NCBI GenBank assembly: GCA_947167995.1
Contig: CAMVKS010000011.1
Location: 1-63,454 of the forward strand
Direction of reading: 5' to 3'
DNA from: an uncultured Prevotellaceae bacterium
Lineage (GTDB): Bacteria > Bacteroidota > Bacteroidia > Bacteroidales > Muribaculaceae
Length of the DNA: 63,454 nucleotides
Positions 2,455 through 62,955 of this stretch are shown here, one piece after another. How positions within the stretch are numbered: position 1 is the stretch's first letter; every line of letters starts with the position of its first letter. The notes below the pieces were generated by a model. It saw only the letters and a list, made by a program, of their open reading frames with translations, made no database searches and was not told the DNA's origin. The translations under genes were made by a program, and so were the position numbers.

Positions 2455-5400
2455 ATGAAATTTTTTACCCAACTAAAAAAGTGGTCGTCATTAGCACTCA
2501 TGCTGTGCGTGGCGACTCAATTGCAGGCAGCCGATGTTGACTTGGCTACCGCAAAGAATGCAGCAAAGTCATTTATGGCTAAGCAAGTTGCCAACGGTCG
2601 GCTGAGAGCTGCTGCTACCAGCAATCTCATGCTCGTCAAGGCCGAGGCATCGGTAGCGAAACCTGAAGCAGTGGATTACTACATCTTCAACGCCGACAAA
2701 GCCTATGTCGTTGTTGCTGGCGACGATCAGGCACCCGAAATCCTGATGTATGGCGAGGAAGGAACTATCGATTTAGGAAACATCCCTCCCGCAATGCAGT
2801 GGTTGCTCAACAAGTACAAATATCAGATTGACGGCCTCAAAGCTGGCACTCTCAAGCCCAACGGCTACACCCCCAAGGCTACCACAGCGGTTGCTCCGCT
2901 GACAAATGCCAACTGGGACCAGAGTTCTCCCTACAACAACCAGTGCCCCACCAGTGGCAGCAGCCGCACCCTCACCGGATGCCCCGCCACCTCGCTGAGT
3001 ATGTGCTACTATGTGTGGAAATGGCCCAAGACCTTCCCTGCTGTAGCAGCCATCAATGGCTCGTCGAGCGGTGGCGTGTCGGCAGCTGCACTGCCTGAGC
3101 GCGCAGCCGACTGGGACAACATCATTGATGAGTATACTGGTCCCTCTAACTATAGCTCTACCTCGGCACAAAAAACTGCCGTGGCATGGCTGATGCGCTA
3201 TGTAGGCCAGTCGATTCCCGACTACATGTACGGCACCGACGCCAGTGGCGCCAACGACCCCGAGATTTATCAGGGCGTTCTTAACATGGGTTACACCGAT
3301 GCACAGCTGCTCACACTCACCGAGCTGCAATCATCGGGCTGGAGCTACACCAATGGCCCTCAGCAATACACCGATGCACAGTGGAACGAATGGATGCTCG
3401 CCGAGTTGCATGCTGGCAACCCAATCGAGTATCTTGCCTATGACTGCAGCAGCTATCAGCCTGCAGGCCATGCCTTCAACGTGTTTGGCTGCAACACCAG
3501 CGGTCAGTACTACGTGAACTGGGGCTGGAGCGGCGACAGCAATGGCTACTGCACACTGCACAACTTCACCACCAACACTGGTGCAACAGGTCAGTCGGGT
3601 TCTTATGTGTTCAACTATGGTGAGGCAATGATTATTGGCATCCGTCCTCCAGCAAGCGCTCTTGGTCCCAACATCGCTGTTGACCCCGCCAGCCTTGCAT
3701 TTGAGGGCTATGTGGGCGATACCTACACCAAGACCTTCACCGTGACTGGTAACAACCTTGAGGGCAACATCACCATCTCTAAACAAGGAGCCAGCAACAT
3801 CACCGTGAGCCCCACCAGCATCACTGCTGCCAATGCAGCTGGTGGCGTGCAGGTTACAGTAACCTACAAGCCCACCAACGCAGGCAACAGCAATGCAACA
3901 ATCACACTTGCCAGCACTGGTGCTGAGAGCGTGACAGTGAACGTTACCGGTACTGCCCAGGCCAAGGTTCCAACCATCAACGTTGACCCAACATCGGTGA
4001 GCATGAGTGCCAGCTTGTCGTCAACAGTGACTAAGACCATCAACGTTACTGGTCTGTTCTTGACAAATAACATTACTGTTACTCTGAACGACAACAATGG
4101 TGTGTTCAGCGTTACTCCAACCACCATCACCGCTGCCAACGCAGCTAATGGCGTTCCTGTAACCGTTTCGTTCAACTCGGCCAACGAGGGCAATTTCACT
4201 GGCTCACTCGTACTGGCCAGCAATGGTGCCGAGAGCAAGACCGTTCAACTCACCGCTCAGGCCAACGACGGCGGCACTGCAAGCGACGCCTATCTGAACA
4301 TCGCTAAATATGAGACCATAGGCGAGGCTGGTGCTACCGTGAGCGGCATGTCGAAGATCTACAGCTACACCGAGTATCCAGCAAATCAGTGCGCATGGCT
4401 CACACTCTCTTACTATGGTTCACAAAAGGTCGATGCCAACCAGAACTGGTTTGACTATGAAGGCACAGCCAAGTCGGGCAACGAGACTTGGAATGCAAAC
4501 GGCATCTTCCTGGGCAGCAGCAATTACTTTACTGGTACTGCTTATTACTGCAACTGGAACGAGGCCTACCAGAACTTCTATGTGACCAACTGTAGCGAGG
4601 TAAGTCAGCTCTCTTACAACATTGGTTCAAGCTACTCTTCGGGCAATACTTATCCATTGAAGATGCAAATCTATGAGTGCACCCTCAATGCCGATGGTAC
4701 ACTCAGTGTGGGCACTACTGCCGTTGTCAACAAGCAGAGCCAGCTTACCAATCAGGTAGAGGTGACATCTTCGGGCGCTTTGGATCCAAGCAAGATCTAC
4801 AAGGTGAGAATCTACAATGACTACTCTCACCTCTATGAGATTGCCTTCAAGACCGACCTCAATGTGACTCTTCCAGCTACACCAACCAACCTTCAGGCCG
4901 ATCCTTCAACTACTGCAGCCAACATAACTTGGACTCCAGGCGAGAACAATGACGGCTGGAACTTGCGTTGGAGAGAGTATGATGAAGATGCAGGCGAAGC
5001 TGGAGTGTCGTTCACCGAGGATTTCGAGAACGGACTTGACAATTGGACTCTCATCAACACCGATGGCGACTCTTACAACTGGCAGACAGTGGACCTGACC
5101 AGCAGTTTCAGCGGACAATTTACCGCCAAAGACGGTTCTTATGTCGCCATGTCAAGAAGCTGGATTAACAACACAGTGGGTGCTGTCACACCCGACCAGT
5201 GGTTGATTAGTCCTCAAATTGCAGATTTGGGTGGAACTCTCAAATATTACATAATGGACGATGGCAACAATTATCAGGAGAATTATCGCATCTATGTTTC
5301 TACCAGTGGTAAAAACATCAGCGACTTTGTGCCAGTTACCGATGACATGCTTTCACCAAATTCAAAAGAATGGAACGAAGTATCTATCGATTTGAGCAGT

Positions 5401-5835
5401 TATAAGGGTAAAACTGGTTATATTGCCTTCCGTCACTATAACTGCACCGACAAGGACTTCATGTTCATCGATGCCATCACTCTCACCACCAAGCAGGCAG
5501 CCGAGTGGAACTATGTTAATGGCGTCACCAGTCCTTACACCCTCGCTGGACTGACACCTAACACCACCTACGAGGTACAGGTTCAAGGCAAGTTTGAGTC
5601 GCTGCTGAGCAACTGGACTGCGTCGACCATCTTCACTACACTTGCTGGCGGTGTCGCTGGCGACGTGAATGCCGACGGTGAGGTTAACACAGTAGACATC
5701 ACTATCCTCTACAACTACCTCCTCAATGGTGAGACCGAGGGCATGGTTAACGGCGACCAAGACGGCGACGGTGCCATAACCTCAGTCGATGTGACTGTTG
5801 TCTATAACGTAATACTTGGAGCTAAGAAGAAATAA
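2455..5835 (+). CDS. Secreted C10 (streptopain-like) cysteine peptidase with dockerin tail
   Basis: Secreted papain-fold protease of the C10 family, 1126 residues. After a signal peptide (about 1-26) comes a streptopain-type propeptide (to about 130), then the catalytic domain with Cys176 in TGCPATS and His339 in AGHAFNVFG, followed by the NWGWSGDSNG motif typical of the family. Two beta-sandwich repeats of HYDIN/ASH type (about 405-605) lead to one copy of a shared module of unknown function (about 609-803). An FN3 domain split by a choice-of-anchor-J-like insert follows (about 810-1060), and a two-loop dockerin ends the protein (1069-1126; DVNADGEVNTVD and DQDGDGAITSVD). It has its own promoter and terminator. 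Protein degradation outside the cell or at its surface is the family role; substrates are unknown. Confidence 0.92.
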   Translation: MKFFTQLKKWSSLALMLCVATQLQAADVDLATAKNAAKSFMAKQVANGRLRAAATSNLMLVKAEASVAKPEAVDYYIFNADKAYVVVAGDDQAPEILMYGEEGTIDLGNIPPAMQWLLNKYKYQIDGLKAGTLKPNGYTPKATTAVAPLTNANWDQSSPYNNQCPTSGSSRTLTGCPATSLSMCYYVWKWPKTFPAVAAINGSSSGGVSAAALPERAADWDNIIDEYTGPSNYSSTSAQKTAVAWLMRYVGQSIPDYMYGTDASGANDPEIYQGVLNMGYTDAQLLTLTELQSSGWSYTNGPQQYTDAQWNEWMLAELHAGNPIEYLAYDCSSYQPAGHAFNVFGCNTSGQYYVNWGWSGDSNGYCTLHNFTTNTGATGQSGSYVFNYGEAMIIGIRPPASALGPNIAVDPASLAFEGYVGDTYTKTFTVTGNNLEGNITISKQGASNITVSPTSITAANAAGGVQVTVTYKPTNAGNSNATITLASTGAESVTVNVTGTAQAKVPTINVDPTSVSMSASLSSTVTKTINVTGLFLTNNITVTLNDNNGVFSVTPTTITAANAANGVPVTVSFNSANEGNFTGSLVLASNGAESKTVQLTAQANDGGTASDAYLNIAKYETIGEAGATVSGMSKIYSYTEYPANQCAWLTLSYYGSQKVDANQNWFDYEGTAKSGNETWNANGIFLGSSNYFTGTAYYCNWNEAYQNFYVTNCSEVSQLSYNIGSSYSSGNTYPLKMQIYECTLNADGTLSVGTTAVVNKQSQLTNQVEVTSSGALDPSKIYKVRIYNDYSHLYEIAFKTDLNVTLPATPTNLQADPSTTAANITWTPGENNDGWNLRWREYDEDAGEAGVSFTEDFENGLDNWTLINTDGDSYNWQTVDLTSSFSGQFTAKDGSYVAMSRSWINNTVGAVTPDQWLISPQIADLGGTLKYYIMDDGNNYQENYRIYVSTSGKNISDFVPVTDDMLSPNSKEWNEVSIDLSSYKGKTGYIAFRHYNCTDKDFMFIDAITLTTKQAAEWNYVNGVTSPYTLAGLTPNTTYEVQVQGKFESLLSNWTASTIFTTLAGGVAGDVNADGEVNTVDITILYNYLLNGETEGMVNGDQDGDGAITSVDVTVVYNVILGAKKK

Positions 5836-6076: not shown

Positions 6077-7843
6077 ATGAAGAAATTATTATCACTATTA
6101 ACCGTCGTGGCATTTGCGTTGCCAGTAATGGCGGTGGGCACAGCCAGTGATCCTTATCTAAACGTCACCAACTATACCTCCATCGATCAGGCAGGCGCTA
6201 CTGTAGATGGCATGCAGAGCATTTACAAGTACACCCAGCAAGGAGGTGGCTATTGGCTCACATTGTCAAACTATGGCGTGATGAAGACCGATGCGACACA
6301 AAACTGGTTTGAGAACACCACCACCGATGCCGACACAGGCTCCCAGTACACCAACGCCTGGACCGCTACCGACATCTTCCCCGGCCCAAGCGCCTACTTT
6401 GGCGACAACGCTGCTTATTCGGTAAAATACAAGCAGCCCACAAAGACACAGACTTTCTATGTGACTTTCTGTACACAAGTCAAGCAATATGCCTATCATC
6501 GCAGTAACGCTTCTTACTACATCTTCAAGATGGAGATCTATGAGTGCGAGCAGAACCCCGACGGCTCAATCACCGAGGGAACCACTCCTGTCGAAACCTT
6601 GACTAACCAAAATATTGGTGCCGAGGTGATGACCTCGAGTGAGCTCGACCCCGAGAAGATTTATAAGGTGGTAATCTCTAACTCTTATTCTTATCTCTAT
6701 GAGATAGGTTTCAAGACCCCAGGCGTGTTTGACGGCGAGATTGTTGCTCCTGTGGCTTATGACGTCACCGATTTAACCTATCATCAAGTTTATGACACTA
6801 GCAATATTCTTTGCGAAAGCTTCACTTGCCACTGGAGCGCTTGCCCAGGCGTCAAGAATTACAATTTGCGAGTTTACCCCATTCAGCCCGAGGGTCTTAT
6901 TTTCCGTGATAAATTCTCTAATATTACCGCTAATGATGTATTTGAACCTATCGACACCGATGGCAATCAAGATTTAGACGGCTATTCCGACCACAATGGT
7001 TGGTCTGGTTACGGCCTGCAAGGAGCCGATGGTGGAATCGTAATCAACAATGGAGGCCAACTTACTTTCTCGGGTTCGGAAGCTGATTTGAGTATTTATC
7101 GCTTCGTGAAGAAATTCACAATTAAATTCAAGGCAAAAGCCTACGATGGTGACACCAACTGCAAGCTCCTTTTCGCTATTGGCAGCAAGAATCTCACTGT
7201 AGATTTAACTCCTGAGGAGAAGTGGTACACTGTTGTAATAGACAGGGAATATCCCGACTATTTTTCACGTTTGTTTATAGGCGGTTTGTTCCATAACACT
7301 ACCTATGAGCCAGGCAACAACCGCGTTGTTATCACCGATTTCAAGGTTTACTACGGCGATTACAGCGAGCCACGGAATGTGAATTCTCCCAAGTACATCG
7401 TTCCTGCCTGGAGTGGTGACAGCACTTTTGTCAACAACATTCCAAGCGATAGCACCAGCTTCAGGTTTGGCAAGTATATAAATGAGGAAGGTAATGAACA
7501 AATCGATATGTCTATCGGAATCATGGATTATGCCTACTATTATTATGATGTGCAGGCAGTATATTATGGTGGCATAAAGAGCGAATGGTCTAACCAGATT
7601 CCTATATGGTTAACGCCATGGCCCGATTTCCTTGAGGATGTCGACGACGACGATCCTGTGGGCATTGCTGGCGACGTGAACGGCGACGGCGAGGTCAATA
7701 CAGTGGATATCACTATCCTCTACAACTACCTCCTAAATGGAGAAACCGAGGGCATGGTTAACGGTGACCAGAACAAAGACGGTTCAATTACTACTGTCGA
7801 TATCACTGTGGTATATAACGTCCTGCTCGGAGTAGAACAATAA
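6077..7843 (+). CDS. Secreted dockerin protein, paralogue A
   Basis: 588-residue secreted protein of unknown function. Signal peptide at about 1-20, then directly one copy of the shared roughly 190-residue module (about 21-217; WLTLSNYG, DIFPGPSAYF, FYVTFCTQVK, IYECEQN, IYKVVISNSYSYLYEIGFKTP). Next is an FN3-like half (FTCHWSACPGVKNYNLRV), an inserted lectin-like beta-sandwich (about 275-440) and the FN3 remainder (YDVQAVYYGGIKSEWSNQ). An Asp-rich linker leads to a dockerin (532-588). No catalytic motif is visible. It is a tandem paralogue of the next gene, with gap-free similarity from the ATG through the first module. Binding of a glycan or protein is a guess from the architecture. Confidence 0.85.
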   Translation: MKKLLSLLTVVAFALPVMAVGTASDPYLNVTNYTSIDQAGATVDGMQSIYKYTQQGGGYWLTLSNYGVMKTDATQNWFENTTTDADTGSQYTNAWTATDIFPGPSAYFGDNAAYSVKYKQPTKTQTFYVTFCTQVKQYAYHRSNASYYIFKMEIYECEQNPDGSITEGTTPVETLTNQNIGAEVMTSSELDPEKIYKVVISNSYSYLYEIGFKTPGVFDGEIVAPVAYDVTDLTYHQVYDTSNILCESFTCHWSACPGVKNYNLRVYPIQPEGLIFRDKFSNITANDVFEPIDTDGNQDLDGYSDHNGWSGYGLQGADGGIVINNGGQLTFSGSEADLSIYRFVKKFTIKFKAKAYDGDTNCKLLFAIGSKNLTVDLTPEEKWYTVVIDREYPDYFSRLFIGGLFHNTTYEPGNNRVVITDFKVYYGDYSEPRNVNSPKYIVPAWSGDSTFVNNIPSDSTSFRFGKYINEEGNEQIDMSIGIMDYAYYYYDVQAVYYGGIKSEWSNQIPIWLTPWPDFLEDVDDDDPVGIAGDVNGDGEVNTVDITILYNYLLNGETEGMVNGDQNKDGSITTVDITVVYNVLLGVEQ

Positions 7844-8038: not shown

Positions 8039-9739
8039 ATGAAGAAATTATTATCCCTATTGACCGTCATGACGATAGCGCTGCCATTGATGGCTGCGGG
8101 CACTGCCAGTGACCCCTATCTGAATGTCTCTAAATATGCCACCATCGACGAGGCTGGTGCCGCAGTCGATGGCATGGAGACCATCTACAAGTACACCGAA
8201 GCCCCCGGTGGCTATTGGCTCACTCTCTCAAACTATGGCGTGATGAAGACCGACGCCACTCAAAACTGGTTTGAGAACACCAACACCGATGCCGACACAG
8301 GCTCCCAGTACACCAACGAATGGACCGCTACCGACATCTTCCCCGGCCCAAGCGCCTACTTTGGCGACAACGCTGCTTATTCGGTAAAATACAAGCAGCC
8401 CACAAAGACACAGACTTTCTATGTGACTTACTGTACACAAGTTAAGCAATATGCTTACCATCGCAGCAACGCTTCTTACTACATCTTCAAGATGGAGATT
8501 TATGAGTGTGAACAGAATGCCGACGGCACACTCACCGGAGGCACTACTCTAATCGAAACCTTGACTAACCAAAATATTGGTGCCGAGGTGATGACCTCTA
8601 ATGAGCTCGACCCCGAGAAGATTTACAAGGTTGTGATTTATAACTCTTACTCTTATCTCTATGAGATAGGTTTCAAGACTCCAGGTGCGTTTGATGGAGA
8701 GATTACAGCACCAGTAGCCTACGAGGCCACCGGTATTGACCAGGAAGCTGTCACTCTGCACTGGAGCCCATGCCCCGGTGTGAAGAGCTATTCGGCGCGC
8801 ATCTATCCAACTACTCCCACAGGCTTGATTTTCCGCGAGAATTTCTCTCATTTCACAGCCAGTGATGAGGTGGCCGACTGGCAAAATATTGACCAGTATA
8901 CCGACAATCCTGGATGGCTGGGCTGGAAACTGCATGGTGCCGATGGTGGGGTAGTGGTTGACCAAGGTGGCTACATCAGCACTCCCGATGGTTACGTGGC
9001 CTATCCTTACCTGACCAACTTCACCATTAAATTTAAGGCGAAATCCTATGGCGACGACACTGGCTGCAAACTTGGCGTGCAAGGTGGCGGCCAGAACTTG
9101 ACATTCGATCTCACCCCCGAAGAGAAAGAATATACCATTCTGTGCGACAAGCCTTATGACACCAATGCATCGGTTTGGTTCTCGTTTTTCAACAATAGCG
9201 ACGCCGACGAGAATCCACACCGCATTGTCTTGACCAGTTATAAGGCCTATCTGGGCGACTTTAGCCAGCCACGCTCTGCCGACGCACACTCTCCCAAGTG
9301 GGTAAAGCCAGAGTGGGTGGGCGACACCACCTTCTTTTACAACATTCCTGCCGACAGCACAATGATTCACCTGGGCTATTATTATGATGGCATGGGCAAC
9401 CAGCACATCGACTTTGCCTTCTTCAACTACACGAACGCGTGCTATGCCTATCAGGTAAAGTCTGTTTATTACGACGGACAGGAGAGCGAGTGGTCTAACA
9501 TTATCAACTATGTCTACGGAACATGGCCCACATTTATCAGTGACGACGACGAGCCAGGCACTCCAGTTGCTGGCGACGTGAATGGCGACGGCGAGGTTAA
9601 CACAGTGGATATCACAATCCTCTACAACTACCTCCTCAACAACGACACCGAGGGCATGGTCAACGGCGACCAAGACGGCGACGGTTCCATAACTGCAGTC
9701 GACATCACAGTTGTCTATAACGTATTGCTCAACGAATAG
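8039..9739 (+). CDS. Secreted dockerin protein, paralogue B
   Basis: 566-residue secreted paralogue of the preceding protein. I chose the ATG at 8039 because it opens a signal peptide like that of paralogue A and follows the promoter; the frame stays open upstream, but that would place 24 unlikely residues before the signal. The shared module occupies about 20-216 and is nearly identical to its neighbour over much of its length. The inserted beta-sandwich (about 270-420) has diverged strongly. The C terminus is a dockerin (512-566; DVNGDGEVNTVD and DQDGDGSITAVD). Conserved first module plus diverged middle suggests the two proteins share an assembly partner but bind different targets (inference). 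Confidence 0.85.
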   Translation: MKKLLSLLTVMTIALPLMAAGTASDPYLNVSKYATIDEAGAAVDGMETIYKYTEAPGGYWLTLSNYGVMKTDATQNWFENTNTDADTGSQYTNEWTATDIFPGPSAYFGDNAAYSVKYKQPTKTQTFYVTYCTQVKQYAYHRSNASYYIFKMEIYECEQNADGTLTGGTTLIETLTNQNIGAEVMTSNELDPEKIYKVVIYNSYSYLYEIGFKTPGAFDGEITAPVAYEATGIDQEAVTLHWSPCPGVKSYSARIYPTTPTGLIFRENFSHFTASDEVADWQNIDQYTDNPGWLGWKLHGADGGVVVDQGGYISTPDGYVAYPYLTNFTIKFKAKSYGDDTGCKLGVQGGGQNLTFDLTPEEKEYTILCDKPYDTNASVWFSFFNNSDADENPHRIVLTSYKAYLGDFSQPRSADAHSPKWVKPEWVGDTTFFYNIPADSTMIHLGYYYDGMGNQHIDFAFFNYTNACYAYQVKSVYYDGQESEWSNIINYVYGTWPTFISDDDEPGTPVAGDVNGDGEVNTVDITILYNYLLNNDTEGMVNGDQDGDGSITAVDITVVYNVLLNE

Positions 9740-12900: not shown

Positions 12901-13883
12901 TGGTTCTCACCAATGTTGAGATTTACGCTGGCGACCTCACAAGCACAGCTAAGGCCGACGGCGAGATGCTCTTCCCAGGCATCACCGACACTCACTACAC
13001 CGTTACCGGTCTTGAGCCTGCAACAACCTACATCTACGACGTGAAGGCTGTTTATGGTGACAAGGAGAGCAACTGGTCTAACCAGATTGAGGTTACCACT
13101 CTTGAGGCACAAGAGGAGGGTACTACTCTCGCCGAGATTCTCGAGAGCGGTGTTAACGGCACCGAGTATCTCGTTAGCAACGACCTCGCTATTGTTGACG
13201 TTGCCGAGTACAGAGACTATGCATTCCTCACCGACGGAGAGGGCAACTGGATTCGCATTGAGTGTGCCGACTCAGAGCTCTTCTCTACCTTCGTCAACAA
13301 CCAGGCCATCAAGGGCAACACCCTGCGCGGAACTCTGAGCAACATCGAGCTCAACCCAGTGCTCACCGTAACCGAGGCCCAGAGTGGTGACGATGTTCCT
13401 GAATACTCTATTCAGTTTTATTATCTGGACTCAAGTTTCACACCTAAGGTTAACGAGGTTATCGATGTAGTGGGATGGTTTAATGCCAGCGAGGGCACCC
13501 TGCGTGCTTACGCACCTGGTGCAGTACAGGGAACAAGTATGACTCTCGACACATCTTGGGGCGCTGCCAGCAACACCTTGCAGAATGGCAAGAAATATGA
13601 GATTCGCTGCGCCATGAACATCAAGGAGGCTTGGCACACTCCAGCAGGCATCATGCCCAAGGATTATGCCTATGACTTCCAGAACTACATTGGCTACGCT
13701 CTGCGCTTGCCCGATGCTCCAACTGCCATTGGAACTATCGACATGGATGCCTACAACACTCTCGTGAACGTCTACAACGTTCAGGGACAGCTCATCCGCG
13801 AGAATGTCAAGGCTGGTGAGGCAACTCTCAACCTGCCACGCGGCATCTACATCGTGGGCGACAAGAAAGTTGTGGTTAAGTAA
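9942..13883 (+). CDS. Secreted C10 cysteine peptidase with T9SS sorting tail
   Basis: 1313-residue paralogue of the 2455 peptidase with a different tail. Signal peptide, streptopain-like propeptide, catalytic Cys176 (TGCPATS) and His348 (AGHAFNVFG), two HYDIN/ASH-type repeats (about 415-610), the shared module (about 615-805) and an FN3 domain split by a beta-sandwich (about 806-1045). An OB-like domain follows (about 1055-1230), then a C-terminal T9SS type-A-like sorting signal (about 1275-1313; VYNVQGQLIRENV and LPRGIYIVGDKKVVVK). T9SS tails direct export through the outer membrane and surface attachment. The last 933 bp match the neighbouring M6 gene at about 95% identity. A terminator at 13921 ends the unit. 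Confidence 0.92.
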   Translation: MKFFNRLKKWSSVALLLCMATQVQAADVNLATAQNVAKSFMTQQVAKGRLKAADVSNLQLVKAEASVFNPKAVDYYVFNADKSYVVVAGDDQAPEVLMYGVSGKLDMDKIPPAMKWLLNKYKYQIDGLKAGTLVPNNYSPKATTAVAPLVTCTWDQTAPYYNHTPTSGSTHAYTGCPATSLSMCFYLYKWPKTYPALEAIPANSYYGYLAAPALEEKAADWDNILEHYGTWYDDNGSAHSASYNSTQAEAISWLMRYVGQACNMGYSTSGSGATDPEILEACHTFGYTDAQLYTLNELVQSSYGGYTNGPAQYTDDQWNEWMLAELHAGRPIEYLAYDCSDSSQPAGHAFNVFGCDADGKYYVNWGWSGDSNGYCTLHNFTTATGATGQAGSYVFNYGEAMIIGIAPPAGAMGPQITVNPTSLEFEGYVGETYTKTFTVTGANLEGDVTISKQGSNNITVSTTTITAANAANGVEVTVTYKPTNVGNASAVLTLSSDGADDVTLNVTGTAQAKVPTINVDPTSLSFNANLTSTVTKTFTVTGLFLTNNVTVTLNDNNGVFSVTPTTITAANAANGVPVTVSFSSENEGTFTGSLTIASTGAESKTVALTATARDGGTASDAYLNIAKYATIDEAGATVSSMLSIYKYTEYNNDNCAWLTVSTYGAKQVDANQNWLETGSLNQYNNTWSATDIFLGQNAYFGTSTAYSIYGSGSQTFYVTNCTQAKALVKDGSSSKATLAIYECTVNADGSLTAATTATDSQQGGASGTAVITSATLDASKVYKVQLTGGGSYPDLLEVGFKTPIEGIETPVATAATEVGTNEFTANWNACEGATSYTLRVTPKPETTGPELLISENFSAFTNANGNTDLGSSLDNYMQNAGWTGSYVYERAGGLQLGSNSYAGTLTSPQLDLTGSNGKVTVKFNAYSYSSSYSPSTLYVSMNGESANQQSVSVNYGTTGAEYTVVLDCNAVTGQTVSFRTSTRRYRVVLTNVEIYAGDLTSTAKADGEMLFPGITDTHYTVTGLEPATTYIYDVKAVYGDKESNWSNQIEVTTLEAQEEGTTLAEILESGVNGTEYLVSNDLAIVDVAEYRDYAFLTDGEGNWIRIECADSELFSTFVNNQAIKGNTLRGTLSNIELNPVLTVTEAQSGDDVPEYSIQFYYLDSSFTPKVNEVIDVVGWFNASEGTLRAYAPGAVQGTSMTLDTSWGAASNTLQNGKKYEIRCAMNIKEAWHTPAGIMPKDYAYDFQNYIGYALRLPDAPTAIGTIDMDAYNTLVNVYNVQGQLIRENVKAGEATLNLPRGIYIVGDKKVVVK
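12951..13883 (+). repeat. 933-bp coding duplication, copy 1
   Basis: This aligns without gaps to 17511-18443, offset 4560. By hand I count about 45 differences. Bases 13611-13873 are identical to 18171-18433. It encodes the end of the FN3 domain, the OB-like domain and the T9SS tail. Confidence 0.9.
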
Positions 13884-50619: not shown

Positions 50620-50670
50620 CACACACATAATTAAAAACAAACAACTATTAGCATAAACAAAACCAATCAA

Positions 50671-53604: not shown

Positions 53605-56600
53605 ATGAGAAAGTATTTCCTTTTTTTGATGGCAGCATGTGTGTCGCTTGCAATTATTGCAGGCGACAAGCTAAGTGCGCCAACACGAGTGTTCTTACAG
53701 CAACGTGCCAATGCCGTTGCCCAGGCACCTAACGGCAAGAGTGTTCTTGCCTCGCCCAAGACATTGAATGGCATGGAGTATGTGGAATGCTTCATCACCC
53801 TGAATGGTTCTTCGATAGCCGAACTCGAGGCTAACGGAGTACAAGTTACTGGTCTGTTCAGCGACTTTGTCACTGCCAGTATTCCTGTCGACAAGCTTGA
53901 GACTGTAGCTCGCCTTGGTGGTGTCAAGCAAGTGGGTATCGCACGCAACGCACGACTGCTCACCGATGTAGCCAAAGGCATTGTTAACGCCGACAAGGCA
54001 TGGGACGGCACCAACTATGGCCTTCCACAGGGCTATACTGGTCAAGGTGTAGTTGTTGGTCTCATTGACGATGGTATCCAGTTCAACCACCGTGCTTTCC
54101 TTGATGCGAATGGCAACACTCGCGTGAAAGCGGTTTATATGCCTAACGCCAGCAGCGCCAACGGCGGTACCAAAGCCACTATCGACGGCGTGCAACTCAT
54201 GGGCTATCAGTACACCACTCCAAGCCAAATCGCCGCCCTCACCTGCGACGACACTGGTGAGAGTCATGGCACGCACACCAGTGGTTGCGCCGCAGGCTCG
54301 CAAGTAGGCAACTACTCTGGTATGGCCCCCGAGGCCGACCTCATCCTGTGTGGCTGCGGTTCTTCACTTACCGATAACGCCATCATGAGTTCGGCCAAGT
54401 ACATTGGCTGGTATGCTCAGCAACTTGGCAAGCCATGCGTTATCAGCATCAGTCTGGGTAGCGACATCGGTCCTCACGATGGCACCAGCATCATCAGCCG
54501 CGCCTATACCGAGGTTGCCAACACCTATGGCGCAGTGATTCTGCTTGCAGCAGGTAACGAGGCCGACATCATCGGTCACGCCCACAAAACACTCTCAAGC
54601 AGCAGCGACTACATGGCAGTCACCAACAATGTTTCTGGCGGCTGGTGGGGTGGTAGTGCCACCGGTGCTTGCGACATCTGGAATAGCACCAGCGATGAGC
54701 TGCAAATCAAGGTTATCGTAGGCAGCTCACAGAGCGACTGGATGACAAGCGGCACCTTTAGTGGTGTTACCGTTTCGGGTGGCGTGGATGCCTTCAACAA
54801 TCGCTATAACCTCTATATCGAAAGCAGCGAATCCTCGGCAACCTATGTAATTAAAGGACAAGCCGGCAACACCATCAACGTCTATACCGACTGCTATTAC
54901 AGCACTCTTAGCTCATCGTCGGGCAGCGTGAGTGGCTACACCATCACTCCTGGTACCTACGAGGGCTCTATGTGCGACGACATGACATCGCCCAAGGTAA
55001 TTAGTGTGGGTGCTATGTGCACGCGCTCTACCGACAATGGCTCTTACGGCATTAACGACATCGCCTACTTCTCGAGCTACGGCGTGGACTTCAACGGCGT
55101 TAACCAGCCATTCATCACTGCTCCTGGCCACTATGTGATTTCGTCAATCAATGGCTATGACTCTTATCAGTCGTCTTCTTGGTCGATGACCTACAATGGC
55201 ACAACCTATAAGTGGGGCCAGATGAGTGGAACCTCGATGGCTACTCCTTGCGCCGCTGGTGTGGTAGCACTCTATCTGCAGGCCGACCCAACTCTCGACG
55301 TTGACCGCGTGAAGGAGATTATTGCCGAGACAGCCACTGCCTATACCAATCCCTCCAGCCCTGCTCTTCAGCGTGGTCATGGAATCATCAACGCAGTCGA
55401 TGGTATCGAGTACATTCTCCAGCATCAGGGACCAACTATCGTTGCCAAGCCCGACAATGTAAACTTCCAGGGTTATGCCGGCGAGACTTATACCGAAGTC
55501 ATCACTGTTAAGGGTTATAACCTCACTCAACCCATCAATATTGCTAAGAGTGGCTCAAATCTTATCAGTGTGAACACCACTACCATCAGTGCCGAGGATG
55601 CTTACAGTGGCGTTGAGGTCACAGTAACCTATGCTCCCACAGCAGCCGGCGAGGCCGAGGCCACCCTCACCCTCACCAGCGCAGGTGCCGAGACCGTTAC
55701 CATCCCCATCACTTGTGCGGCCGACCCCAGGGTTCCAACAGTCATTGTTAATCCTGAGTCGCTTGAGTTCGTAACACCTTTGTCGACAACGGTGACCAAG
55801 ACCATCGACGTTACAGGTCTCTTCCTCGAGGGCGATGTCACTGTCACTCTCACCGACCCAAGCAATGTGTTCAGCGTTTCGCACACTACTATCCCCGCAA
55901 GCAGCTTCAGCGCAGGCACTCCAGTGCAAGTGACTGTGACCTTCAACTCGGGCGATACTGAGGCCGAATATACCGGCTCGATAGCATTCACTCCCAAAAA
56001 CGGAGCATCGAAGACGGTTGCTCTCAGTGCACAATCCTACGAGGGCGGCAATGCCAGCGATTCTTACCTGAACATCGCAAAATATGCCACCATCGACGAG
56101 GCTGGCGCTACAGTGAGCGGCATGACCTCTATCTACAAGTACACCATGCTAAACGATGCTGCATGGCTCACCCTTTCGGCTTATGGTGCACTTCAGGCCG
56201 ATGAAAACCAAAAATGGGTTGAGACCAGTTCTCTGTCATCTTACAGCAACAACTGGACCGCAACCGATATATTTGTTGGTGACGACGCATACTTCGGTTC
56301 CAATAACTCTTATTCGATTTATGGAAGCGGCAGCCAGACCTACTATGTTACCAATTGCGCCCAGGTTAAGGCTTATGTGAAGGGCAGCGGCACGTCGAGC
56401 TCAAATGCTACATTGGCTATCTTTGAGTGCTCACTCAATGCCGACGGCACACTCACCCCTGCCACAGCAGCTACCGACACCAAGCAAGGTACTGATGGCG
56501 TGATCACTTCGGCAGGCATCGACCCCAACAAGATTTATAAGGTAGTTTTGAGTGGTGGTGGAAGCTACCCCGACATTCTGGAGATTGGTTTCAAGACCGA

Positions 56601-57669
56601 GCTCAACCAACCAATGATTGTTGCCGATCCTTCCGACCTGACAATCTCGGCAAAACCTGGCGATACCGGCACTGCCACTATCAACGTGCGCGGCAAGATG
56701 TTGCCAGGCGATATTACAGTGGCTTTGAACGATCCTAACAATGTATTTGCTGTTTCGCCCACTACTATCAGCAAGGAAGCTGCCGAGGCAGGCACAACGC
56801 TCACCGTTACTTTCAAGAGTGACGAGGAGATTAACTGCAATGGCACAATCACCCTTACCAGTGGAAACCTTACTGCAACAGTAAACCTTAAAGGAAATTG
56901 CAACGACGGCGGCACCGCCAGCGATAATTATCTCAATATAGCCAAGTATGCCACTATCGATGCTGCTGGAGCAAATGTTAGCTACATGACTTCGATTTAC
57001 AATTACACCGAGTATGAGGATGACGACTGCGCTTGGCTCACCGTTTCTACCTATGGCGCTAAGCAAGCCGATGCCACTCAGAAATGGCTTGAAACCGGCT
57101 CTCTGTCGCAATACAACAACTCGTGGGCAGCATTCGACATCTTCCCAATCGACGATGCGTTCTTTGGCACTGCCCAGGCTTATGGCATTTACGGTAGCGG
57201 CAACCAAGTCTTCTATGTCACCAACTGTACCCAAGCTAAGGCTCTGGTTAAGGATGGTAGCAGTAGCAAGGCAACACTCAAGATTTATGAGTGCACACTC
57301 AATGCCGACGGCTCAATCACTCCTTCGGCAACAGCTGTTGACTCACAGCAAGGCGGCGCAAGCGGCTTGGTAGTTATCACTTCGGCCCAGCTCGATGCTT
57401 CTAAGGTTTACAAGGTTGAATTGATTGGTGGCGGTTCTTATCCCGACCTCCTGGCTGTGGGCTTCCAGACTCCACTCGTCCATGGTATCGTTGGCGATGT
57501 GAACTGCGACGGTGAGGTTACTACTGTTGACATCACTTGCCTCTACAACTATCTGCTCAACGGCGACGAGACCTACCTTGCCACCAGCGATGTAGATGGC
57601 GACGGCCAAGTCACCACAGTTGACATCACAGTAATCTACAACATCCTGCTTGCTTCTAAGAAGAAGTAA
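53605..57669 (+). CDS. Secreted S8 (subtilisin-like) serine peptidase with dockerin tail
   Basis: 1354 residues. Signal peptide (about 1-20), an inhibitor-like propeptide (about 25-120), and a subtilase domain with Asp155 (GLIDDGI), His221 (SHGTHTSG), Asn318 (LAAGNE) and Ser544 (GTSMATP). The catalytic domain is interrupted by a beta insert (about 345-445), as in cell-envelope subtilases. Then come two ASH-like repeats (about 610-810), a shared module (about 814-1001), a further ASH-like repeat, a second shared module (about 1102-1290) and a dockerin (1297-1354; DVNCDGEVTTVD and DVDGDGQVTTVD). No FN3 domain is evident. Own promoter and terminator. Confidence 0.93.
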   Translation: MRKYFLFLMAACVSLAIIAGDKLSAPTRVFLQQRANAVAQAPNGKSVLASPKTLNGMEYVECFITLNGSSIAELEANGVQVTGLFSDFVTASIPVDKLETVARLGGVKQVGIARNARLLTDVAKGIVNADKAWDGTNYGLPQGYTGQGVVVGLIDDGIQFNHRAFLDANGNTRVKAVYMPNASSANGGTKATIDGVQLMGYQYTTPSQIAALTCDDTGESHGTHTSGCAAGSQVGNYSGMAPEADLILCGCGSSLTDNAIMSSAKYIGWYAQQLGKPCVISISLGSDIGPHDGTSIISRAYTEVANTYGAVILLAAGNEADIIGHAHKTLSSSSDYMAVTNNVSGGWWGGSATGACDIWNSTSDELQIKVIVGSSQSDWMTSGTFSGVTVSGGVDAFNNRYNLYIESSESSATYVIKGQAGNTINVYTDCYYSTLSSSSGSVSGYTITPGTYEGSMCDDMTSPKVISVGAMCTRSTDNGSYGINDIAYFSSYGVDFNGVNQPFITAPGHYVISSINGYDSYQSSSWSMTYNGTTYKWGQMSGTSMATPCAAGVVALYLQADPTLDVDRVKEIIAETATAYTNPSSPALQRGHGIINAVDGIEYILQHQGPTIVAKPDNVNFQGYAGETYTEVITVKGYNLTQPINIAKSGSNLISVNTTTISAEDAYSGVEVTVTYAPTAAGEAEATLTLTSAGAETVTIPITCAADPRVPTVIVNPESLEFVTPLSTTVTKTIDVTGLFLEGDVTVTLTDPSNVFSVSHTTIPASSFSAGTPVQVTVTFNSGDTEAEYTGSIAFTPKNGASKTVALSAQSYEGGNASDSYLNIAKYATIDEAGATVSGMTSIYKYTMLNDAAWLTLSAYGALQADENQKWVETSSLSSYSNNWTATDIFVGDDAYFGSNNSYSIYGSGSQTYYVTNCAQVKAYVKGSGTSSSNATLAIFECSLNADGTLTPATAATDTKQGTDGVITSAGIDPNKIYKVVLSGGGSYPDILEIGFKTELNQPMIVADPSDLTISAKPGDTGTATINVRGKMLPGDITVALNDPNNVFAVSPTTISKEAAEAGTTLTVTFKSDEEINCNGTITLTSGNLTATVNLKGNCNDGGTASDNYLNIAKYATIDAAGANVSYMTSIYNYTEYEDDDCAWLTVSTYGAKQADATQKWLETGSLSQYNNSWAAFDIFPIDDAFFGTAQAYGIYGSGNQVFYVTNCTQAKALVKDGSSSKATLKIYECTLNADGSITPSATAVDSQQGGASGLVVITSAQLDASKVYKVELIGGGSYPDLLAVGFQTPLVHGIVGDVNCDGEVTTVDITCLYNYLLNGDETYLATSDVDGDGQVTTVDITVIYNILLASKKK

Positions 57670-57867: not shown

Positions 57868-60800
57868 ATGAAAAAGCTACTATCTTTACTGACTGTCATG
57901 GCAGTTGCTGTGCAACTGATGGCAGCACCCGTTGATGTGTCAACGGCGAAGACCAAGGCCGAGCAATACCTTGCCAACAAGGTGTATGCCGGCAAGTACA
58001 TGGCCCCTGCGGCCACTCAAGCCAAGCTCATCAAGACCGAGATGGGCGAGAAAGCACAAACTCCTGTGTATTACATTTTCAACACCGAGACCACCTTTGT
58101 CATCGTCAGCGGTGACGATCGTGCCGAGGAAGTGCTTGCCTACGGCGACAGACCTCTGAACCTGGACCGCATCCCCACCAACATGCAGGCATGGCTCAAT
58201 GGCTACAAGCGCCAAATCGACTGGCTGCTTACCCACCCCGACGTCAAGGTCGAGAAACCAACCACAGCTAAGGCTCCTGGCCTCAAAGCCACAACTTACG
58301 GCCCACTGCTCACCTGCTTGTGGGACCAAACTGAGCCCTACTGGGATCTGTGCAAATTCACCTACAGCGGCACTAACTACCAGTGCTACACTGGCTGCCC
58401 TGCCACATCGGCATCGATGGTGCTCTACTACTGGAAATACCCCACTGAACCCGTTGGACCACTTCCTGCCTACTCTTCGACTCTCGAACTGGGCTACTAT
58501 AACAGCGTGAACTATACCTACGCTGCTCTGCCACAAGTGACCTTCGACTGGGACAACATGAAGGACCATTATGGCACATGGAAAGATGAGAACGGCACAA
58601 CTCACAACGAGACTTACACCGAAGCCGAGGGTGCCGCAGTGGCCACCCTGATGCGCTATGTGGGCCAGGCCGAGCACATGATGTATGGCACCGCTGCTGC
58701 TGGCGGTAGTGGCATCTACACAACCGATGCCCAGATTGTTGCCGACATGTACATTGGCTTCGGCTACGATGAGGCCACCACTCGCCTGGTGCAGAAAGGC
58801 AGCTACACCGAGGCTCAATGGGCTCAATTGCTGCAAACCGAGATGATTGAGAGCCGTCCCGTGGTGTTCATGGCTGTGGACAACGGCGCTGGCGGCCATG
58901 CCTTCAATGTCGACGGTTACAATTCCAGCACCAACAAGTATCACATCAACTTTGGCTGGAGTGGCGACGGCAACAACTGGTGCGCGATGAACGCCTTCTC
59001 CGATGGCGAGGGCTACACATTCAATAGCGACCAGCAGATGATCATCGGCATTCAGCCTCCAATGGGTATGATTAAGACCAATCCTTCGGAGGTGAACTTC
59101 AACGGCTTTGCAGGCGAAACCTATACTCAGACCGTGAGAGTTCAGGCCCGTAACATCGAGAACAATGTTGAAATCGCCCTGAGCGGTGACAATGTTTACA
59201 GCATCAGCCACACAACCATCACTCCAACTGAGGCTGCCAATGGTGTTGACGTAGTAGTTACCTACGCTCCCACCCAGGCTGGCAACACCAGTGCAACTAT
59301 CACACTCTCGTGCGCCGACGAGGAAGTGGAGACTGTTACCGTGCCCATCACCGGTGTGGCTGCGCCACGCGTGCCAACTCTGCTTGTCGATACCGAGAGT
59401 CTCGACTTCTCTGCCACTCTTGACAAGACAGTGACAAAAAACATCTCTCTCACTGGAGCATTCCTGACCAATGACGTTACTGTAACCTTGAACGACACAA
59501 AGGGTGTATTCACAGTTTCACCAACTACAATTTCACAAAGCAGCACCGATGTCAACACTCCTGTAACTGTTGCTGTATCATTTAGTTCGGCAACAGAGGG
59601 TAGCTTCACTGGCTCAATCACATTTGCCAGCGATGGCGCCGAGAGCAAGACTGTAAACCTCACTGCTATAGCTCGTGATGGTGGCACCGCTGCCGACCCA
59701 TTCCTCAACATCGCCAATTATGAGACTATCGACGAGGCTGGAGCCGCTGTCGATGGCATGAACACTATCTACAAGTACACTGAGTATGAAGAACAAGAGT
59801 GCGCTTGGCTCACTGTCTCTAACTACGGCGCACAGAAGGCTGACGCAAACCAGAACTGGATTAGCTGCACTTCACTCACTCAATATAGCAACTCATGGAG
59901 CGCAAGCGACGTGTTCCCAGGACAAAACGCTTACTTTGGCAGCAGCCAGGCTTACTCGGTTTATGGAAGCGGCAACCAATCATTCTTTGTAACCAACTGT
60001 ACTCAAGTCAAGGCTCTTGTCAAGGGTAGCAGCTACAGCAGCTCATCGGCAAGCCTGGCAATCTATGAGTGCACGCTCAATGCCAATGGCACTGTCACTC
60101 CTTCAAGTAGTGCAGTTGACACTAAAACAGGTGGCGACGGAGTCATAACTTCGGCTGAGCTTGATGAGTCAAAGATTTATAATGTGCAATTGACTGGTGG
60201 TGGCTCTTATCCCGACCTCCTGGAGATTGGTTTCAAGACTCCACTCAATCAACTCGAGACTCCTGTGGCTACTGCTGCTACCGAGATTACTGCCAGCAGC
60301 TTCGTAGCAAACTGGACACCATGCGAGGGTGCTACCAGCTACATCCTGCGTGTCGTGCCCAAGAACTACGACATCCTCACCGAGGGCTTCTCGAAGTTCA
60401 CCAAGGCTGGCGCTCAAGACCTGGGCAGCAAGCTCGACGACTATATGGACAACGCCGGCTGGACTGGAACTAAGGTCTATGAGGCAGTGGGAGGCGCACG
60501 CCTGGGCACTGCCTCGGCTACTGGCTCAATCACTTCGCCAGTTCTCACTCTCACCGAGAACAAGGTGACCGTTACTTTCAAGGCCATGGCCTTCAACAAC
60601 GACACCAACTGCAACTTCAAGGTTTCTTGCGGCAGCGCAAGTGAGACTGTGACTTTGCCCGACAATAACGAGGCAACCTACACTGTGGTCCTTGACTGCA
60701 ACGCAGGCGCTGGCCAGAAGATCAAGTTTGAGACCGTTGCCAATAGCAAGCGCGTGATCATTACTGGCATTCACGTCATCGATGGCGAGCACGCAGGCAC

Positions 60801-61146
60801 TGCCAAGTCGATTGATATCGACGGAGTGACATTCACAGGCATCACTGGCAGCAGCTACAAGGTTACCGGCCTTGATCCTGCCACAACCTACCTCTATGAC
60901 GTGAAGGCTGTGTTTGGTGCTAAGCAGAGCAAGTGGTCTAATCTGATTACGGTTACCACTCTTGCTGGCGGTATCGTGGGTGACGTGAACTGCGATGGCG
61001 AAGTAACCACCATCGACATCACCTGCCTCTACAACTACCTGCTCAACGGCGACGAGACCTATCTCGCCACCAGCGACGTGAATGGTGACGGTGAGATTAC
61101 AACTGTCGACATCACCGTAATCTACAACATCTTGCTTGGCAATTAA
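57868..61146 (+). CDS. Secreted C10 cysteine peptidase with dockerin tail, second type
   Basis: 1092 residues. Signal peptide (about 1-19), streptopain-type propeptide, catalytic Cys177 (YTGCPATSAS) and His344 (GGHAFNVDGYN), then NFGWSGDGNN. In its propeptide and active site it is closer to the giant C10 peptidase at 29718 than to those at 2455 and 9942. Two ASH-like repeats (about 400-600) are followed by one shared module (about 605-793), an FN3 domain split by a beta-sandwich (about 797-1030; FVANWTPCEGATSYILRV, then YLYDVKAVFGAKQSKWSN) and a dockerin (1038-1092; DVNCDGEVTTID and DVNGDGEITTVD) that is almost the dockerin of the upstream S8 peptidase. Confidence 0.92.
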   Translation: MKKLLSLLTVMAVAVQLMAAPVDVSTAKTKAEQYLANKVYAGKYMAPAATQAKLIKTEMGEKAQTPVYYIFNTETTFVIVSGDDRAEEVLAYGDRPLNLDRIPTNMQAWLNGYKRQIDWLLTHPDVKVEKPTTAKAPGLKATTYGPLLTCLWDQTEPYWDLCKFTYSGTNYQCYTGCPATSASMVLYYWKYPTEPVGPLPAYSSTLELGYYNSVNYTYAALPQVTFDWDNMKDHYGTWKDENGTTHNETYTEAEGAAVATLMRYVGQAEHMMYGTAAAGGSGIYTTDAQIVADMYIGFGYDEATTRLVQKGSYTEAQWAQLLQTEMIESRPVVFMAVDNGAGGHAFNVDGYNSSTNKYHINFGWSGDGNNWCAMNAFSDGEGYTFNSDQQMIIGIQPPMGMIKTNPSEVNFNGFAGETYTQTVRVQARNIENNVEIALSGDNVYSISHTTITPTEAANGVDVVVTYAPTQAGNTSATITLSCADEEVETVTVPITGVAAPRVPTLLVDTESLDFSATLDKTVTKNISLTGAFLTNDVTVTLNDTKGVFTVSPTTISQSSTDVNTPVTVAVSFSSATEGSFTGSITFASDGAESKTVNLTAIARDGGTAADPFLNIANYETIDEAGAAVDGMNTIYKYTEYEEQECAWLTVSNYGAQKADANQNWISCTSLTQYSNSWSASDVFPGQNAYFGSSQAYSVYGSGNQSFFVTNCTQVKALVKGSSYSSSSASLAIYECTLNANGTVTPSSSAVDTKTGGDGVITSAELDESKIYNVQLTGGGSYPDLLEIGFKTPLNQLETPVATAATEITASSFVANWTPCEGATSYILRVVPKNYDILTEGFSKFTKAGAQDLGSKLDDYMDNAGWTGTKVYEAVGGARLGTASATGSITSPVLTLTENKVTVTFKAMAFNNDTNCNFKVSCGSASETVTLPDNNEATYTVVLDCNAGAGQKIKFETVANSKRVIITGIHVIDGEHAGTAKSIDIDGVTFTGITGSSYKVTGLDPATTYLYDVKAVFGAKQSKWSNLITVTTLAGGIVGDVNCDGEVTTIDITCLYNYLLNGDETYLATSDVNGDGEITTVDITVIYNILLGN

Positions 61147-61239: not shown

Positions 61240-62955
61240 TCAGTTGCCCAGCAGCACACTATAGACGGCTGTGATGTCGGCGGCGGTGATGATATTGTCG
61301 CCAGTTTGGTCACCGTTGACAACATGGCTGTAGTCATTGTTGAGCAGGACATCAAAGAGTGCTGTCACGTCGGCAGCGGTCACAGTGCCGTCGCCGTTCA
61401 CGTCACCAAGCATGCCGCCGATGGTAGCTCGAGTTGCCACATTGCCGCTGGCATCATACAGGATTCCACCCGCAAAATACCCCCCAACGGGTTCGGTGAT
61501 TCTCAAGCCGTCCTCCAAAACCAATTCACCCATGTTGCGTATCGCACCTGAACCGCCAGTTGCAAGCACATTAGTTCCGCTCCCCTTAACCACAAGTCGA
61601 GTGTTGGAAGGACTCGATGCATAGATGCCGTAGGTGCCTCGGGCTATCAAGCTATGAAGATTGTTAATCGTGAGGGTTTTGCCGCTAACTATCGTGATGC
61701 CTGATTTCCTTCCTTGCACGCCAAGTGTATCGGTGCCTGTTATCGTGGTGTTTGACAGCACCATCCCATTCATATTGGTGCCAGATGGCATTACTAAGAT
61801 GCTACTTGTGCCCTTCACATTAATGGTCAGTCCATCGATACTACTTCTTATGCAGGCTCCATTGCTTGTCTCGCCACAGCTGAGCCTGGCATTCTCAAGT
61901 GTGAGAGTCTTGGACGATGGATTGTAGGTTACAGTGCCGCTCACGCCATAAATGTTGCTTAGATTGTAGCAATTGGCGTTGGTCACTTGCACACCGTTAA
62001 TCCACAGGTCAAATTCCTCGATTGCACCAATGAAATAGCCAGGATTGCTGGGGCCACCATCGATGTGGGCATAAGCCATGTTGACATGGTTAGGATTATA
62101 GGTGGTTCCTGCGCCGCCAACAAGCTTAGTGCAGCCCATGAACATTTCAGCCGAATTTCCTGCACTTGTAGCTTGCGTGCTCCAATTGTCGCCCACGCTG
62201 ATAGTTGTTAGATTAGAACAATCATAAAACATCCTGACCATAAAGTACACACCTGATGTGTTGAAACTGCTTAAATCAAGAAAGGTGAGATTCTCACAAT
62301 AACTGAACATGGAACGCATATTGACAACATTACTGGTATTGAAACTACTTATTTTTAAATTTGACAAACTCTTACAATTACGGAACATGCCATCCATACT
62401 TGTGGTTTTGCTAGTATTGAAACTGCTCAAGTCAAGACTGGTGAGATTTTCACAGTGTCCAAACATATCACTCATATCGATAACATTTGAAGTGTTAAAG
62501 CTGCTGAGGTTAAGAATCGCCAGGCTCTCGCACCCATAGAACATCTGCACCATCCTATTCACATTAGAAGTATTGAAGCCGCTAAGGTTAAGATTTGTCA
62601 GTTTTTTGCATCCACAGAACATATACATCATATCGGTCACCTGGCTGGTGTTGAGATAGTTCAATCCCAACATAGATTCCAGATTTTCCATATGGCTAAA
62701 CCAGTAAGAGGTAGCGGTGGGGCGAGCCTGTGCAAATGATGAGTCGAAGACTACTCGCGTCACACTTGCATAGGTGCCATCATGGTACCACTCTGGCCTG
62801 TAGTAGGCATTATTCAGGCTATAAGCCCCATCAGGTTTTGTGCCGTAGTAGAAGGTGAGCGTGGTGTTGCTTGGGGTATAAACCACATAAGGTTCGGCCG
62901 CCCATGCAGCGATGCACGCCGTCATTGTCACTAAGAGAAAAAGTAATCGTTTCAT
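61240..62955 (-). CDS. BspA/PARCEL-type repeat surface protein with dockerin tail
   Basis: 571 residues. Signal peptide (about 1-19), then about six copies of a 24-25 residue repeat (about 85-265) of the DUF285/PARCEL type: xMFxxCxxLTxLDLSSFNTSxV (for example MFGHCENLTSLDLSSFNTS). This family includes BspA-like leucine-rich adhesins and Mycoplasma surface lipoproteins. Next is a domain starting LWINGVQVTNA (about 296-500), shared with the 38138 protein, and a dockerin (517-571; DVNGDGTVTAAD and DQTGDNIITAAD). Its dockerin is very close to the N-terminal dockerin of the 35558 protein. Likely a surface or secreted adhesin. Confidence 0.87.
   Translation of the reverse strand: MKRLLFLLVTMTACIAAWAAEPYVVYTPSNTTLTFYYGTKPDGAYSLNNAYYRPEWYHDGTYASVTRVVFDSSFAQARPTATSYWFSHMENLESMLGLNYLNTSQVTDMMYMFCGCKKLTNLNLSGFNTSNVNRMVQMFYGCESLAILNLSSFNTSNVIDMSDMFGHCENLTSLDLSSFNTSKTTSMDGMFRNCKSLSNLKISSFNTSNVVNMRSMFSYCENLTFLDLSSFNTSGVYFMVRMFYDCSNLTTISVGDNWSTQATSAGNSAEMFMGCTKLVGGAGTTYNPNHVNMAYAHIDGGPSNPGYFIGAIEEFDLWINGVQVTNANCYNLSNIYGVSGTVTYNPSSKTLTLENARLSCGETSNGACIRSSIDGLTINVKGTSSILVMPSGTNMNGMVLSNTTITGTDTLGVQGRKSGITIVSGKTLTINNLHSLIARGTYGIYASSPSNTRLVVKGSGTNVLATGGSGAIRNMGELVLEDGLRITEPVGGYFAGGILYDASGNVATRATIGGMLGDVNGDGTVTAADVTALFDVLLNNDYSHVVNGDQTGDNIITAADITAVYSVLLGN

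Follow-up and report, generated by a model that had tools for sequence, protein, structure and literature searches.

The 63,454-nucleotide stretch analysed here (the window) constitutes contig C11 of a 2.93-Mb draft genome of 121 contigs, labelled G000. Its host probably belongs to the family Muribaculaceae, and the labels of its relatives together with published dockerin counts point to the genus Sodaliphilus. The window encodes ten dockerin-bearing proteins alongside close paralogues ending in tails that resemble the sorting domains of the type IX secretion system (T9SS), and we consider it probable that these are cargo genes of a Bacteroidales cohesin–dockerin multiprotein system, anchored through the T9SS and displaying proteases and adhesins. 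The genes in question are the following:

2455..5835 (+): C10 peptidase with I69 propeptide and cleaved-adhesin domain, C-terminal dockerin at residues 1069-1122 (Pfam)
6077..7843 (+): secreted protein with C-terminal dockerin and no further Pfam family above cut-off
8039..9739 (+): paralogue of 6077, C-terminal dockerin (Pfam)
9942..13883 (+): C10 peptidase, close paralogue of 2455, T9SS type A-like tail in place of the dockerin
14148..18443 (+): M6 peptidase with the same T9SS-like tail as 9942
19905..21398 (+): CotH protein, half-degenerate C-terminal dockerin with intact second loop (17.5 bits, below Pfam cut-off)
21486..22952 (+): CotH protein, half-degenerate C-terminal dockerin (16.4 bits, below Pfam cut-off)
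24832..29718 (-): C10 peptidase with cleaved-adhesin domain and a C-terminal tail of a second type, its T9SS assignment unproven
35558..38044 (+): protein with N-terminal dockerin right behind the signal peptide
38138..41935 (+): secreted protein of 1265 aa, C-terminal dockerin (Pfam)
53605..57669 (+): S8 subtilase, C-terminal dockerin (Pfam)
57868..61146 (+): C10 peptidase, C-terminal dockerin, best Protein Data Bank (PDB) sequence match interpain A
61240..62955 (-): adhesin-like protein with leucine-rich repeats (LRR/DUF285), C-terminal dockerin (Pfam)

A sequence-only reading of the window had named ten dockerin proteins, and all ten proved to be real open reading frames (ORFs) with dockerins, eight of which reached the Pfam cut-off (seven C-terminal domains and the N-terminal one of 35558), while the two CotH copies are half-degenerate. 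The E-values for Pfam Dockerin_1 were 5e-10 (2455), 1e-11 (6077), 4e-11 (8039, scanned as a longer frame starting at 7967), 1e-12 (38138), 9e-11 (53605), 8e-13 (57868) and 4e-5 for the minus-strand gene starting at 62955 (24.3 bits against a cut-off of 22.9); the N-terminal domain of 35558 returned 23.0 bits against the same cut-off. The dockerins of 19905 and 21486 no longer have their first calcium loop but keep an intact second one, and that of 21486 rose to 27.8 bits, above the cut-off, when scanned with its in-frame neighbours. All ten scored 29–110 bits against a home-made dockerin profile that was built from eight of them, those eight thus not being independent of it. Ten dockerins in 63 kb compare with about 2.3 expected from the 106 found in 2.93 Mb. 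Protein 6077 showed 64.5% identity to its neighbour 8039, and at the DNA level the dockerins of 8039 and 2455 share 88% identity over 159 bp.

The window was also said to hold four C10 peptidases, two ending in a dockerin and two in a T9SS tail. The four peptidases are there, 2455 and 57868 do end in a dockerin and 9942 bears a T9SS-like, sub-threshold tail, but the assignment is unproven for 24832. An alignment of proteins 2455 and 9942 spans 1,092 positions with 56% identity and runs to residue ~1,060, beyond which the two have different tails; the M6 peptidase 14148 matches 9942 with 78% identity across its own C-terminal 900 residues. The tails of 9942 and 14148 matched TIGR04183 at 17 bits, under the cut-off of 23, and the same model was matched at E ≤ 1 by 19 of the 21 scanned tails of this type, the sole score shown lying 0.3 bits under the cut-off. 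None of 18 tails of the 24832 type matched TIGR04183 at E ≤ 1, and this tail was therefore rejected as a proven T9SS type A sorting domain. The second tail type (24835-25074, minus strand) also ends proteins of ~270 and ~640 aa upstream of the anchor and scaffoldin genes described below (L058-L066). A home-made tail profile located 60 tail-like places in the genome at E ≤ 0.01, of which not all were confirmed as C-terminal. The genome check for T9SS components proposed by the sequence-only reading found the SprA translocon at full length (2716 bits, positions 2-2318 of 2319) and three consecutive PorU-like sortases above cut-off (G000:C44:3191-15011, minus strand).

The same reading had seen neither a cohesin nor a scaffoldin. 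No Pfam cohesin was found among the window proteins scanned either, but the genome as a whole contradicts the claim: it holds 106 dockerin ORFs as well as 16 ORFs with 28 cohesin modules between them, annotated from selected stretches of the genome, among them scaffoldins whose binding to the dockerins is predicted. The 28 modules were found with a profile, A1, made from 13 own-genome cohesin modules, while Pfam cohesin gave seven matches in this genome, four of them above cut-off. Ninety of the dockerin ORFs carry a dockerin only, 14 a dockerin and a cohesin, and two a dockerin and a tail. By motif, the 91 cargo dockerin domains have two calcium loops in 65 cases, one in 25 and none in 1; given 106 ORFs and 65 two-loop domains, chance dockerin matches were rejected.

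The main scaffoldin (G000:C3, 916 aa) consists of six tandem cohesins and a C-terminal dockerin, and two further scaffoldins (683 and 685 aa) contain three cohesins each, Ig-like spacers and a dockerin. On profile comparison, the dockerins ending these three largest scaffoldins are of the cargo type. In anchor-like proteins, one of which is encoded beside the main scaffoldin, a dockerin is combined with a T9SS type A-like tail and with a cohesin or a remnant resembling one. The tail profile detected a T9SS-like tail on five cohesin ORFs; dockerin and T9SS-like tail occur together in only 6 of the 106 dockerin ORFs, four of which bear cohesins, and the remaining two are S8 proteases adjoining a three-cohesin scaffoldin. 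In these two S8 anchors a weak cohesin remnant (~7 bits) lies between dockerin and tail. With the cargo profile, the dockerins of five of the six ORFs score 0–24 bits and represent a second type; the sixth, at 73 bits, is of the cargo type. A recognition code telling scaffoldin from cargo dockerins was sought and not found. Carbohydrate-binding module (CBM) families were absent at E ≤ 1 from the 7 of 16 cohesin ORFs scanned, which included the 916-, 683- and 685-aa scaffoldins. The C10 peptidase at L071:5673-8909 (minus strand) itself has a cohesin and a dockerin of the second type; its end looks tail-like by eye but was missed by the tail profile.

The identity of the cohesin modules was examined with several profiles. 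Pfam cohesin matched the 683-aa scaffoldin in three stretches with a total of 68.7 bits, the two three-cohesin scaffoldins scoring 69 and 58 bits. A profile made from the modules of these two proteins recovered every one of the six modules in the 916-aa scaffoldin (best E-value 9e-14) as well as 15 of the 16 cohesin ORFs, and one made from the scaffoldin modules of relatives matched all 16; neither profile returned a shuffled decoy at E ≤ 1. When A1 was compared with the PDB, all four matches at E ≤ 0.003 were cohesins or scaffoldins (E 5e-4 to 3e-3), and its background is given by 268 of 294 genomes of the order in which it found no match.

The arrangement is conserved. When genomes were scanned with six orthologous scaffoldins, 11 loci emerged, of which nine contain a full-length scaffoldin, and in all nine the anchor gene stands directly upstream of it. 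The number of cohesins is six in eight of these scaffoldins and four in the ninth; with the first anchor as reference, the anchors show 77–95% identity. The nine loci belong to metagenome-assembled genomes (RUG, presumably rumen genomes, and RGIG isolates) from buffalo omasum, goat reticulum and red deer, one having no stated host, and labelled Muribaculaceae, Prevotellaceae or Bacteroidales. The close relatives of the bacterium come mostly from ruminant guts. Among 81 relatives, the own genome included, cohesin matches at E ≤ 0.001 occurred in 48 of 49 genus members and in 3 of 32 others, and each of the 49 genus genomes gave at least 28 dockerin matches.

In this draw of 294 order genomes, 26 had cohesins, 71 had dockerins (E ≤ 1e-5) and 24 had both, the matches per genome being lower bounds drawn from the best-scored candidates. 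Cohesins were thus present in 24 of 71 dockerin-positive versus 2 of 223 dockerin-negative genomes (Fisher p 1e-14, a statistic that ignores kinship). With A1, cohesins were found in 10 of the 17 order genomes with at least five dockerins, the own genome among them. One genome from another family of the order, G051, gave 24 cohesin and 38 dockerin matches; its region C25:211542-221540 contains a 2467-aa frame with eight cohesin matches listed and a 1239-aa frame with four.

The composition of the cargo was assessed in two Pfam scans of 89 of the 90 cargo ORFs, a 68-aa fragment being left out, from the 25 of 35 families shown per scan. The counts are minimal ones: C10 in at least 6, M6 in 4, S8 in 3, CotH in 8, BspA-type LRR_5 in 11, CBM26 in 7, alpha-amylase in 3, FGE-sulfatase-like in 4, glycoside hydrolase (GH) family GH53 in 1 and GH113-like in 1. 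No cellulase family was among those shown. Proteases, adhesin-like LRR proteins, CotH and starch-binding proteins make up most of the cargo families shown, which bears out the earlier description of proteases and adhesins rather than cellulases and adds CotH and starch-binding proteins to it. A simple signal-peptide rule was passed by 71 of the 82 cargo ORFs with a complete N-terminus; of the other 11, five are lipoprotein-like by a rough motif and six are weak or failing. With the tail profile, a T9SS-like tail was found in none of the 15 cargo ORFs that have an N-terminal dockerin and a free C-terminus. This is more telling than the mutual exclusion of dockerin and tail at the C-terminus, which is partly trivial, both modules being usually C-terminal.

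The exchange of tails was followed in the C10 peptidases, whose matches number 3 to 30 per genome across 25 genomes of the genus. From the matches in these 25 genomes, 60 genes were fetched (59 from 17 relatives and one own), hand-picked from the best rows and not random; L153 was dropped for a stop codon inside the match. With genes obtained earlier, the final set comprised 68 genes, 10 own and 58 from relatives. Fifty-four carry a dockerin, ten a T9SS-like tail, four neither and none both. On the tree of the catalytic domains, the T9SS label needs at least six changes when all ten T9SS-like tails are counted, five of them forced by well-supported branches; with nine tails, leaving out 24832 and the four genes with neither, the minimum is four, and with only the six clearest T9SS tails it is three. 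The value depends on the rows included; four was adopted. The labels are more clustered than shuffled ones (shuffled mean 8.6 changes), and the tails are therefore inherited yet exchangeable. That the tails are exchangeable modules, as had been proposed for the window, is thus upheld by the predicted tail assignments across the tree.

Taken together, these data suggest an arrangement at the cell surface. The cargo dockerins would bind the cohesins of the scaffoldins, the scaffoldins would dock through their own dockerin onto the cohesins of T9SS anchors, and PorU would attach the anchors to the outer surface, where proteases, BspA-like LRR adhesins, CotH and CBM26/amylase proteins would be displayed together. 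Dockerin and T9SS tail may be alternative routes to the same surface, which would be why close paralogues swap tails. A protease-based complex had been put forward from the window, and a protease-loaded one is the reading best compatible with the sequences. The accompanying idea of a dockerin route running parallel to the T9SS needs amending, as several cohesin proteins carry T9SS-type tails and the two routes appear to converge.

Several observations weigh against this assignment. Scanned whole, the 916-aa six-cohesin scaffoldin gave no Pfam cohesin match, and Pfam cohesin was matched at E ≤ 1 by only 21 of 52 scaffoldin modules from the nine relatives. The profile of those 52 modules had a cohesin as its top PDB match, at an E-value of only 0.046, and a whole three-cohesin scaffoldin retrieved from the PDB at E ≤ 0.1 only dockerin-bearing chains and no cohesin. 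In whole-protein scans of window and anchor proteins, the T9SS tails stay under the curated cut-offs. Large scaffoldins and cargo have one dockerin type in common, and because of this the scaffoldin-to-anchor link is a guess. The co-occurrence of the two modules is drawn from related genomes, which are non-independent samples, and from per-genome counts, for genus dockerins as for order-wide cohesins and dockerins, that are minimal; A1 found no cohesin in 7 of the 17 order genomes with at least five dockerins. Finally, cargo without a tail has no known route over the outer membrane.

The low Pfam scores of many cohesin-like modules, the 25 of 91 cargo dockerin domains with one intact loop and the single one with none, and the dockerin-rich genomes of the order that lack a cohesin match would also fit dockerins that do not bind these cohesins at all, acting instead as calcium-stabilised tails or as binders of glycan or envelope, the modules being other Ig-like repeats. 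The results of the cohesin profiles, the co-occurrence of dockerins and cohesins and the cargo-type dockerins at the ends of the large scaffoldins argue against this, and we regard it as distinctly improbable. A complex of cargo and scaffoldins that stays in the periplasm would explain why cargo and large scaffoldins have signal-peptide-like N-termini but no T9SS tail; however, the kinds of cargo (C10 peptidases, LRR adhesins, amylases) and their T9SS-tailed paralogues point outside, as do the T9SS-like tails on the anchors, which makes retention in the periplasm very unlikely.

A surface-displayed, T9SS-anchored cohesin–dockerin complex could itself arise in two ways. Cargo might be exported by an unrecognised signal and dock on cohesins outside the cell as in clostridial cellulosomes, which is how such complexes are generally known to work, and a comparable system has been predicted for Ca. 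Stygibacter (PMC8542988); no common second export signal was noticed on the cargo, although no systematic search for one was made, and we hold this extracellular assembly to be a serious possibility, somewhat short of an even chance. Alternatively, cargo may bind cohesins in the periplasm and the T9SS may carry the folded complex across by means of the anchor tail, the dockerin serving as an export ticket used in trans. This would explain the replacement of a T9SS tail by a dockerin, and it agrees with the 71 of 82 signal-peptide-like cargo N-termini, the confinement of T9SS-like tails to six dockerin ORFs, four of them cohesin-bearing, the tail-less cargo with N-terminal dockerins, the swaps between close paralogues, the union of cohesin and tail in the anchors and the transport of folded proteins by the T9SS (PMC9251779). 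On the other hand, neither our literature search nor the sections of that T9SS review considered here contained a case of such piggy-back export, and a six-cohesin complex may be too big for the pore; we judge it rather unlikely. Equally doubtful, for the present, is the broader notion that in a Gram-negative bacterium the dockerin is a transferable signal for export and display, with assembly on cohesins in the periplasm, exit through the T9SS on the anchor tail and replacement of the T9SS tail in evolution.

Amid the protease cargo of the window, at 42147-53381 (+), lie genes for FolD-like, FTCD, urocanase, aromatic amino acid lyase and amidohydrolase proteins, and genes for a PLA1-like phospholipase and DUF4421 are interspersed among these folate/histidine-degradation genes. 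At 31702-34983 (-) the window encodes a TonB-dependent-receptor-like outer membrane protein, adjoining a gene with BACON and OB-fold domains at 30149-31678 (-). No tRNA gene was found in the window.

Clostridial and ruminococcal cellulosomes (type I cohesin–dockerin) are built from duplicated calcium-loop dockerins, multi-cohesin scaffoldins with a dockerin of their own and anchoring proteins. The present system resembles them in its dockerins and scaffoldins and in having anchor-like proteins, but differs in being Gram-negative and in having a T9SS-like tail where they use SLH or sortase anchors, and it also departs from classical cellulosomes in its lack of a cellulase among the families shown and of a CBM in the cohesin ORFs scanned. 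The cohesin scaffoldins found elsewhere in the genome are, at the level of sequence and with binding as a prediction, what the sequence-only reading had named as grounds for an ordinary cellulosome-like system. Still, it is not an ordinary cellulosome, given its Gram-negative Bacteroidota host, its T9SS-type anchors and the absence of a CBM from the 7 of 16 cohesin ORFs scanned.

The closest precedent, as far as the published description considered here goes, is the complex of Ca. Stygibacter, of the phylum Cloacimonadota (PMC8542988), for which a tandem-cohesin scaffoldin with a surface-attachment C-terminal domain was predicted, a T9SS review being cited there, with dockerins on S8 and C25 peptidases, GH18 and GH57. 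It belongs to another phylum, its one 3,755-aa scaffoldin contains CBM2/CBM3 and bears the C-terminal domain itself, and few cargo genes are named in that description, whereas here anchor and scaffoldin are separate genes, about 90 cargo ORFs are present, tails are swapped and no CBM appeared in the cohesin ORFs scanned. The Limousia mucinolysome (PMC12997984), from a gut bacterium, is likewise described as a cellulosome-like complex; it includes peptidases with dockerins, and its scaffoldin dockerins are proposed to bind an anchoring scaffoldin, but it is from Firmicutes and has a sortase anchor. According to the relevant passages of the same 2026 paper, no cellulosome system had been described outside Firmicutes, and the occurrence of cohesins and dockerins together in Bacteroidetes was called surprising and in need of study, 78 metagenome-assembled genomes with both domains being named. 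As regards the T9SS side, Ca. Paraporphyromonas (PMC5831590) encodes T9SS components and type A cargo with C-terminal sorting tails on secreted enzymes; its genome was reported, in the portion of the paper considered, to be without cohesins and dockerins, whereas here 54 of 68 C10 genes have a dockerin.

Hints of cohesins in Bacteroidota were already available (PMC6071333, PMC9863278). In the camel rumen, cohesins were noted in certain Bacteroidetes, with bins holding two to four in tandem, and bin #136, one with tandem cohesins, was also named as a dockerin-rich Bacteroidetes bin (PMC6071333). In a cattle survey of 2023, Prevotella spp. were credited with cellulosome potential (PMC9863278). 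Unlike the present case, the pertinent sections of these two papers describe no anchor, T9SS link, tail exchange or protease cargo for the camel bins and cattle Prevotella. The latter survey also lists rumen Muribaculaceae C941 with dockerins and GH13 'without cohesion', inferring a non-amylosomal mode, and for Sodaliphilus a 2024 paper, whose main text does not contain the word 'cohesin', counts 63–107 dockerins and puts forward a role in degrading cellulose (PMC10872696). Judged by titles and opening abstracts among the matches listed, no Bacteroidota cohesin–dockerin complex tied to the T9SS was found in the literature.

If the present genome belongs to the C941 or Sodaliphilus lineages, both published proposals, the non-amylosomal mode and cellulose degradation, need another look, because cohesins do exist there but receive low scores from the standard model, and the cargo families shown included no cellulase. 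Should export in trans on the anchors prove true, one T9SS signal would serve dozens of proteins. The anchor, the scaffoldin and the cargo dockerin together form a concrete gene set with which the assembly of cohesins and dockerins in a Gram-negative bacterium, and its connection with the T9SS, can be tested.

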